Positions 23,696 to 30,143 of a stretch of 64,000 bases of DNA are shown here, piece by piece. The notes beneath the pieces were generated by a model. That model was not told the origin of the DNA, ran no database searches, and saw only the letters and a program-made list of their open reading frames with translations. The position numbers were made by a program, and so were the translations under genes. Every line of letters begins with the position of its first letter. Position 1 is the first letter of the stretch. Origin of the DNA: Deltaproteobacteria bacterium (GTDB lineage Bacteria; Desulfobacterota; Desulfobacteria; Desulfobacterales; Desulfobacteraceae); assembly GCA_013151635.1 (NCBI GenBank), contig JAADHV010000110.1:1-64000 (forward strand), in the 5' to 3' direction.

Positions 23696-24013
23696 CTATT
23701 TATTAAAGAAATGGCCCAGAAACCTTTTCTTGGATTGTACAGGCACAGGAAGACCAAGGTGTTCACAGATAATAGTTTCTAACTTTTCATCCTTAATATC
23801 AGTACCTTCGACAACAATATCATCTCCCACCATAACAGCAGGGGCCACGGGCAAATTCAGTTCAAAGTATTCATCTGAAGTGTATTCTGCTTTGGGTTTT
23901 GTTGTGACTTTAATTTCTATGTCATATATTTTGCCCAGCCTGGGCATAATTTTCTTAAAATGCCTTCATGATTTTCCATTAGGCTCGTTCAAAAAGAAGC
24001 TGACTTTCAGCAT
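23696..24013 (-). CDS. Thioredoxin-fold protein, candidate selenoprotein with in-frame TGA at codon 16
   Basis: Read from ATG 24013 (AAGGAGG at 24025-24019, five-base spacer) the frame is MLKVSFFLNEPNGKS, TGA (23968-23966), RHFKKI, then 83 open residues starting MPRLGKIYDIEIKV and containing the cis-Pro loop VAPAVMVGDDIVVEG. Starting at the internal ATG 23947 would discard strand beta1, half of helix 1 and any active site, and that ATG lacks a good ribosome binding site. The TGA falls at the N-cap of helix 1, where thioredoxins carry the redox Cys (GKS-U in place of CxxC). A hairpin with an AGGCT loop follows. Total length would be 105 residues. Neighbours are an ArsR-rhodanese regulator and a membrane polyferredoxin. 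Alternatives: a leader peptide plus a truncated gene, or a nonsense mutation. Confidence 0.7.
23932..23946 (-). promoter_or_regulatory. Candidate bacterial SECIS hairpin
   Basis: On the reverse strand TGCCC-AGGCT-GGGCA forms a 5-bp GC-rich stem with a 5-nt loop. The loop starts 25 nt after the TGA at 23968-23966, and weaker A-T pairs extend the stem below a mismatch. Bacterial SECIS elements lie inside the coding region just after the UGA with a G-containing apical loop; the E. coli fdhF element has the related loop AGGTCT. Function is inferred from position and shape. Confidence 0.5.
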
Positions 24014-24111
24014 AACTGCCTCCTTAAAATTTTCTTATAATAAAATATCTCAAATATTCCCACCGAATCTGTTTATGCCTTATTCAACCGTTAAAGACTT
24101 CCCTTAAACGG

Positions 24112-24777
24112 CTATTCACCCGATGCCACGGGCAGCCCCATGGCCCGCCAGTCCTGTACACCTTCTTCAAGACGAACCGCATGATATCCTTTTTTATTTA
24201 ACAACTCGACTGCCTGGACAGAAAGGACACAATAAGGTCCCCGGCAATAGGCAACAATTTCCCTGGTTTTAGGGAGTTTTGCCAGCATGAGTTCAAGTTC
24301 CTGTAAAGGAACAGACACGGCACCACTAATATGGCCTGCCCTGAATTCTTCAGGCGGGCGGACATCCAGTATGGTGACCTCTTCTTTTTGTATACGTTTT
24401 ATCAATGCATCACGGTCAACCGGTTCCATCCCTTTTTTGCCTTCAAGAAAGCGGTTTTTAATCTGCTCAATTTCTGCAATCCGGTTCTCAGCAATCTTAC
24501 GCATGGAGAAAAAAAACTCGCATACCATGGGAGCAGGCCGGTAAACCACATACAATCCTTTTTTTTCCTGTTCAACCAGACGGGAATTTTTTAGTACCTG
24601 GAGATGCTGGGACGTATTGGCAACGGTAAGAGAGGTCTCCCTTGCAAGATTTTCAACTGTTCTTTCCCCCTGGCAGAGGATATCTAAAAGTTCCAGCCGT
24701 TTGGGGCTTGAAACCGCTTTGCCAATCCGTGAAAATTGATCATATATTTCATCTTTAAAACGCCTGTTAGGATTCAT
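24112..24777 (-). CDS. ArsR-family regulator fused to a rhodanese domain
   Basis: The N-terminal 95 residues are a winged helix of the ArsR type (SSPKRLELLDILCQGERTVE, then LTVANTSQHLQVLKNSRLVE). The C-terminal part, from about residue 120, is a rhodanese domain (TILDVRPPEEFRAGHISGAV) with active-site loop YCRGPYCVLS holding two cysteines. Known members of this architecture sense thiol or sulfane-sulfur state or metals and control sulfur-oxidation or redox genes. ATG 24777 follows GAGGAG. Its own promoter contains an inverted repeat overlapping the -10, so autoregulation is likely. It heads the operon with the thioredoxin-fold protein and the membrane polyferredoxin. Confidence 0.88.
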   Translation of the reverse strand: MNPNRRFKDEIYDQFSRIGKAVSSPKRLELLDILCQGERTVENLARETSLTVANTSQHLQVLKNSRLVEQEKKGLYVVYRPAPMVCEFFFSMRKIAENRIAEIEQIKNRFLEGKKGMEPVDRDALIKRIQKEEVTILDVRPPEEFRAGHISGAVSVPLQELELMLAKLPKTREIVAYCRGPYCVLSVQAVELLNKKGYHAVRLEEGVQDWRAMGLPVASGE

Positions 24778-29979: not shown

Positions 29980-30029
29980 TAAAAAAACCATTCTCTGAGC
30001 AAAAAATACCTGATCATCAGAGGATGGTT
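29980..30029 (-). terminator. Intrinsic terminator of the TPP riboswitch expression platform
   Basis: Reverse strand: AACCAT-C-CTCTGA pairs with TCAGAG-A-ATGGTT across an 18-nt loop and is followed by a run of T. It lies between the riboswitch aptamer and the thiB ribosome binding site, so TPP binding probably favours this terminator. Confidence 0.75.
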
Positions 30030-30038
30030 AAATATAAA

Positions 30039-30126
30039 TTCGTTCCCTCCGCCGGCATTATCCGGATCAGGTTATGGACGGTCGGGTCAACCCCCTCTCA
30101 GCATTGCAATAATGCTCCCGTACAAA
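30039..30126 (-). ncRNA. TPP riboswitch (thi-box)
   Basis: The reverse strand contains the thi-box landmarks in order: ACGGGAGC, GCTGAGAGGG, GACCCGACC, ACCTGATCCGGATAATGCC and GGAGGGAACG, closed by a P1 helix TTTGT/ACGAA. These are the conserved TPP-binding elements. It is followed by an intrinsic terminator and the thiBPQ-like genes, which identifies the transporter substrate as thiamine or a derivative. Confidence 0.96.
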
Positions 30127-30143
30127 TCTTTTCCCTTTTGTAC

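Follow-up and report, generated by a model that had tools for sequence, protein, structure and literature searches.

A probable selenocysteine-encoding tsoC gene beside a NapH-like membrane protein gene in a Desulfobacteraceae genome

The stretch of DNA analysed here (the window: 64,000 nucleotides of contig JAADHV010000110.1, from a Desulfobacteraceae genome) carries on its minus strand a short frame interrupted by a TGA codon, which raises the question of whether this codon specifies selenocysteine (Sec) and, if so, in what protein family and what operon. The results assign the frame, with a probability of roughly 0.9, to tsoC, encoding a thioredoxin-fold selenoprotein in which GxxU replaces CxxC and whose TGA would be decoded by SelB with a downstream hairpin resembling a selenocysteine insertion sequence (SECIS). 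Judged from sequence comparison, tsoC is almost certainly a selenoprotein gene.

The frame starts with an ATG at 24013-24011, separated by 5 nucleotides (nt) from an AAGGAGG motif, and continues through 15 sense codons, the TGA at 23968-23966, 89 further sense codons and a TAG at 23698-23696, in agreement with a preliminary description of this DNA. Six peptide patterns not covering residue 16 served to collect related loci, of which 120 were confirmed and the best 80 used; one of AGGA, GGAG, GAGG or GGGG lies within 20 nt before the tsoC start in 76 of 81 sequences (these 80 loci and the window). The Sec column holds TGA in 79 of the 80 loci and TAA in the remaining one (L036). Within a sample of the phylum, 30 of 395 genomes carry TsoC matches above the family cut-off, and each of these 41 matches (window included) has exactly one TGA. 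In a 44-row alignment comprising the window and 43 of the 80 loci (L036 excluded), F6-G13, column 16, P24, L26 and other positions are invariant. Because the TGA is kept in 79 of 80 loci and flanked on either side by invariant residues, its position is not due to chance, and the earlier proposal that it codes for Sec is supported. Substitution in tsoC is mainly synonymous, with nonsynonymous rates (dN) of 0.19-0.28 across eight pairs involving the window and synonymous rates (dS) of 0.90-3.1 in six of them (saturated in the other two); by these values, the gene is under purifying selection.

Two related copies depart from the conserved form. The TsoC copy at L036:5001-5309 has its TAA at the Sec codon with the remaining frame conserved, reflecting either a natural loss or an assembly error. 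At L126 (G479:C309), from the same genus as the window, tsoC matches fall in two frames with a TAA inside, and the ArsR part of the locus is likewise divided over two frames; this copy is decaying or poorly assembled.

The hairpin downstream of the TGA consists of TGCCC (23946-23942), the loop AGGCT (23941-23937) and GGGCA (23936-23932). The preliminary description had placed it 24 nt past the TGA; the element itself is supported by codon usage, and the distance needed correcting, as the stem starts 19 nt past the TGA and the loop 24 nt past it. Across the 81 sequences (the TAA copy of L036 included), the stem shows CCC in 79, a G-ending Leu codon in all 81, and GGC or GGT in 79. At other positions in these genes, Pro is encoded by CCC in 244 of 648 cases and Leu by a G-ending codon in 386 of 709. 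The corresponding binomial probabilities are 4e-31 (CCC) and 4e-22 (G-ending Leu), figures that serve as indications and not as true probabilities because the sequences are related. Codon choice across relatives thus strongly suggests that the hairpin is constrained at synonymous sites. An Rfam scan of the window at gathering thresholds returned seven tRNAs and one thiamine pyrophosphate (TPP) riboswitch, and no SECIS family.

The genome (4.21 Mb in 136 contigs, 95.37% complete, 3.56% contamination) encodes the machinery for Sec incorporation, namely tRNA-Sec (76.5 bits, gathering threshold 47), SelA (596.7 bits, cut-off 267.9), SelB (356.8 bits, cut-off 242.25) and SelD (347.5 bits, cut-off 125), the SelD gene itself containing a TGA. 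With this machinery present, and with TGA at the same column and a start at the upstream Met in relatives, the objections that the preliminary description had foreseen fall away. SelD gave three above-cut-off matches in this genome (G000:C2, C119 and C32; L107, L108), two, of which one is partial, containing an in-frame TGA and the third being stop-free, lacking the first 48 profile positions and lying at a contig end.

Could the frame be explained without Sec? A mechanical list of open reading frames (ORFs) that recognizes ordinary stops yields just an 83-residue ORF at 23696-23947, beginning at an internal ATG (23947), and a Sec-blind gene finder would report just this fragment, without the Sec residue. 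The TGA would then be the ordinary stop of an unrelated short upstream frame. However, few parts of the family are as conserved as the residues before the TGA (F6-G13), the ribosome binding site lies ahead of 24013, and relatives keep the TGA and start at the upstream Met. An internal start with an ordinary stop was rejected on the conservation around and at the TGA column, in line with the preliminary description, and its probability is close to nil. A pseudogene, that is, a decaying former Sec protein, is only slightly more credible and still very improbable: the same-genus G479 copy is interrupted, tsoB was not found in the window genome and the window reads NGKSU where most relatives read NGKPU, but dN stays at 0.19-0.28 against a dS of 0.90 or more, and the ribosome binding site, TGA, hairpin, frame and invariant residues are all intact, with 136.3 to 143.6 bits to the family model. 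The selenoprotein interpretation is retained on these grounds.

Against NCBIfam NF045708 ("NEPxGxxU motif selenoprotein TsoC"; cut-off 45), the read-through product scores 143.6 bits over positions 1-86 of the 87-position profile, and it is the sole match to this model in its genome. Its motif reads NEPNGKSU, with the TGA at codon 16. Because this score lies well over the cut-off, the product is not a new family, and the earlier suggestion of a new or little-described Sec-dependent protein gives way to a recently named one. The available text of a 2026 review (PMC13188914) lists TsoA (NF045695), TsoB (NF045694), TsoC (NF045708), TsoX and TsoY, describes "Tso (three selenoprotein operon)" and credits Haft and Tolstoy 2025 (mSystems); that text contained no account of the chemistry of the system, and a literature search on the names TsoA, TsoB and TsoC turned up nothing related beyond this review. 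Pfam models gave nothing above cut-off for the 105-residue protein (FecR_C and Helicase_C_2 matched below it), and a PDB sequence search yielded nothing useful (best E 0.27).

Additionally, a TsoC match without a stop was found below the cut-off (27.8 bits, cut-off 45) in G054 (L118:713-1717), where an MbdU-like protein (NF045648 at 318.7 bits, cut-off 600) has a TsoC-like domain at its N-terminus. This domain is fused, whereas the window TsoC is a free protein, and it reads NNPMGVRC against NEPNGKSU, with Cys in the Sec column. The hhalign alignment runs ungapped from residue 1 to well past that column and pairs the Cys with it (probability 90.5), a register that may be favoured by the TsoC alignment having carried C for U. 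The G054 fusion is a possible link between two selenoprotein families.

Table 1. Features of the tsoC locus in the window.
Feature	Position	Strand	Basis
tsoC (TsoC, 105-residue selenoprotein, Sec = residue 16, motif NEPNGKSU)	23696..24013	-	read-through translation; NF045708 match
In-frame TGA (Sec codon)	23966..23968	-	sequence; column conservation in relatives
SECIS-like hairpin TGCCC-AGGCT-GGGCA	23932..23946	-	sequence; folding; codon constraint in 81 sequences
Ribosome binding site AAGGAGG	24019..24025	-	sequence
ArsR/SmtB-type regulator fused to rhodanese domain	24112..24777	-	Pfam HTH_5 and Rhodanese; 98 nt from tsoC
NapH-like membrane 4Fe-4S (polyferredoxin) protein, 311 residues	22752..23687	-	Fer4_5 and Fer4; starts 8 nt after tsoC stop

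The window tsoC lies between the genes of the ArsR-rhodanese regulator and the NapH-like protein, all on the same strand. At L011, L017, L026 and L122, the protein encoded ahead of tsoB-tsoC has 86-96% identity per domain with the window regulator; by this identity, the window has the same operon skeleton, with tsoB missing from it. TsoB is a rhodanese/DsbD-like double selenoprotein usually encoded just before tsoC; it was called upstream when tblastn with the L011 TsoB gave at least 300 bits with a match ending within 1.4 kb upstream of tsoC, as was the case in 60 of the 81 loci. Of the other 21, ten have flanks under 1.85 kb and are undecided, six gave no TsoB match, and five gave weak or partial ones. 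The window belongs to this last group: its 55-bit match corresponds to the rhodanese domain of its own regulator. Absence of TsoB refers to the whole genome for the window and to the locus for other genomes. Across the window genome, the TsoB profile reached at most 66.4 bits (cut-off 805), and TsoA gave no match in a search that was positive in 33 of 50 other genomes. Within the family of the window, 9 of 86 genomes have TsoC, seven of these nine being among the 26 genomes of its genus. Six of the nine show the order ArsR-rhodanese-TsoB-TsoC (tsoC of G498 being matched just partly), and TsoB is absent at the locus in three: the window, G524 (= L034) and G479 with its interrupted copy.

Further TsoC copies were also seen. 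A second, diverged copy (37-59% identical to that of the window) occurs in or near the same operon at 19 of the 80 loci, including L013, L018, L035, L037, L045, L064, L067, L076 and L083. At L119 (G179:C6), a strongly diverged TsoC (52.7 bits, one TGA) lies about 360 nt from an ArsR-rhodanese gene of opposite orientation.

The closest NCBIfam model to the NapH-like protein is NapH/MauN (69.4 bits, below the cut-off of 213). Among 18 distinct genomes searched, close relatives were found only at L037 (about 70%, 529.6 bits), where the gene starts about 2.7 kb downstream of the tsoC start, and at L042 (47%, 268.6 bits), where it directly follows tsoC; the six TsoB-bearing family genomes had no close copy (at most 73.9 bits). 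At L067, a partly masked NapH-like gene precedes the regulator TsoR (154 bits, cut-off 115), and the TsoA match of that genome lies just before tsoC, provided that contig C44 is the L067 record. A search of the 395 phylum genomes (E <= 1e-30, five candidates scored per genome) gave ten positive genomes, two of them with TsoC, namely the window and G408 (the L037 genome); in G294, the gene order is ArsR-rhodanese, NapH-like, DedA-like (the last read by eye), without tsoC. Given these two of ten genomes, and given that the L042 protein (41%) is no closer to that of the window than eight from TsoC-less genomes (about 37-43%), the pairing of TsoC with a NapH-like protein is recurrent but rare on present sequences, being tight in just two cases, the window and L037. 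Two generalizations were rejected on such counts: that the NapH-like protein marks TsoC loci in general, and that a TsoB-less locus is always a NapH locus, since among the 11 loci without a full upstream TsoB (window included) NapH-like matches above 100 bits in the available sequence are limited to the window and L067.

What might the protein do? The fold predicted for TsoC is that of thioredoxin, which agrees, at the level of a structural model, with the preliminary description. By motif reading, U takes the second position of the CxxC equivalent (GxxU) and not that of the usual nucleophilic first Cys. Cys83 is nearly invariant. Tentatively, and at somewhat less than even odds, TsoC may be a cytoplasmic redox carrier whose selenolate acts on sulfane sulfur or a metal(loid) and which is re-reduced from the membrane by TsoB or the NapH-like protein. 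The selenolate, perhaps with Cys83, would handle sulfane sulfur or a thiol-bound metal(loid) (arsenic, selenium) by thiol exchange; oxidised TsoC would then receive electrons from a membrane partner, TsoB (rhodanese and DsbD-like) in most relatives and the adjacent NapH-like protein, standing in for it, in the window genome, while the ArsR-rhodanese protein would sense the same compound and switch the operon on. Gene order makes it plausible that ArsR-rhodanese is the regulator and the polyferredoxin the electron supplier. In relatives, a closely similar ArsR-rhodanese gene stands before tsoB and tsoC, and in the window it stands before tsoC and the NapH-like gene, which suggests electron delivery as the shared role. 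It is a little less likely, and doubtful, that the window holds a reduced, one-selenoprotein Tso version in which a NapH-type polyferredoxin, acquired with or beside tsoC, replaces TsoB as the electron source. If true, the quinone or ferredoxin pool would provide low-potential electrons for a selenol-based reduction of sulfur or metal(loid)s. The locus offers a natural experiment on the role of TsoC in a small, tractable Tso variant.

Several observations weigh against the selenoprotein and redox readings or parts of them. The window hairpin folds as predicted, with an unremarkable energy (z = -0.62; 51 of 200 shuffles were equally good). Because of the TAA at the Sec column of L036 and the interrupted G479 copy, tsoC may be dispensable in places. 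No Foldseek match of TsoC reached E 0.001, and an arsenic or sulfur substrate is inferred from neighbours and fold. L037 carries both TsoB and the NapH-like protein, eight of the ten NapH-positive genomes have no TsoC match, and, in the available sequence, a NapH-like match above 100 bits is missing from nine of the 11 loci with no full TsoB upstream. A competing view is that TsoC is an ArsD-like metal(loid) chaperone, its selenolate binding a soft metal(loid) and passing it to an efflux or methylation system. ArsD indeed appears in the Foldseek top ten (E 0.023-0.027) and the regulators are of ArsR type; at L037, the neighbours of tsoC include a domain resembling arsenate reductase (82.2 bits, cut-off 174.3) and a methyltransferase (70.2 bits, cut-off 180), and at L042 TsoC and the NapH-like gene are followed by part of an efflux permease of SO_0444 type (152.3 bits, cut-off 300). 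However, thioredoxins score as well or better, the arsenic-like neighbours are sub-cut-off and belong to those relatives, reading of the ORF list by eye showed neither an efflux pump nor a methyltransferase immediately next to the window copy, and the Fe-S and DsbD-like character of the neighbours suggests electron transfer. The chaperone is considered unlikely, and the redox carrier is preferred.

Elsewhere in the window, the TPP riboswitch (30027-30131, 73.3 bits) is located just ahead of an apparent ATP-binding cassette (ABC) transport operon of the same strand, with a binding protein and a permease (both named by eye) and an ATPase, which we take to be probably for uptake of thiamine or a precursor.

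Compared with known systems, TsoC resembles the ArsD metallochaperone only as a fold-level Foldseek match (E 0.023). It shares its predicted fold with thioredoxin and SelW-like proteins and differs from them in having GxxU and not CxxC or CxxU (GKSU at residues 13-16, with G13 and column 16 invariant in the 44 rows) and in an identity of 6-22% in 50 structural rows among the matches listed. With the Tso system, the window has in common TsoC and an ArsR-type regulator; TsoA, TsoB and TsoC were not found together in the 95.37% complete genome, and the regulator is an ArsR-rhodanese fusion scoring 30.3 bits to TsoR (cut-off 115). With the TsoC family itself, the window copy shares passage of the curated cut-off, the NEPxGxxU motif and the Sec position, but it reads NGKSU where NGKPU is the common form, and it is paired with a NapH-like membrane Fe-S protein in a genome in which neither TsoA nor TsoB was found. 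Overall, on these sequence comparisons, the window tsoC is a member of a known, little-studied selenoprotein family in an unusual operon variant.
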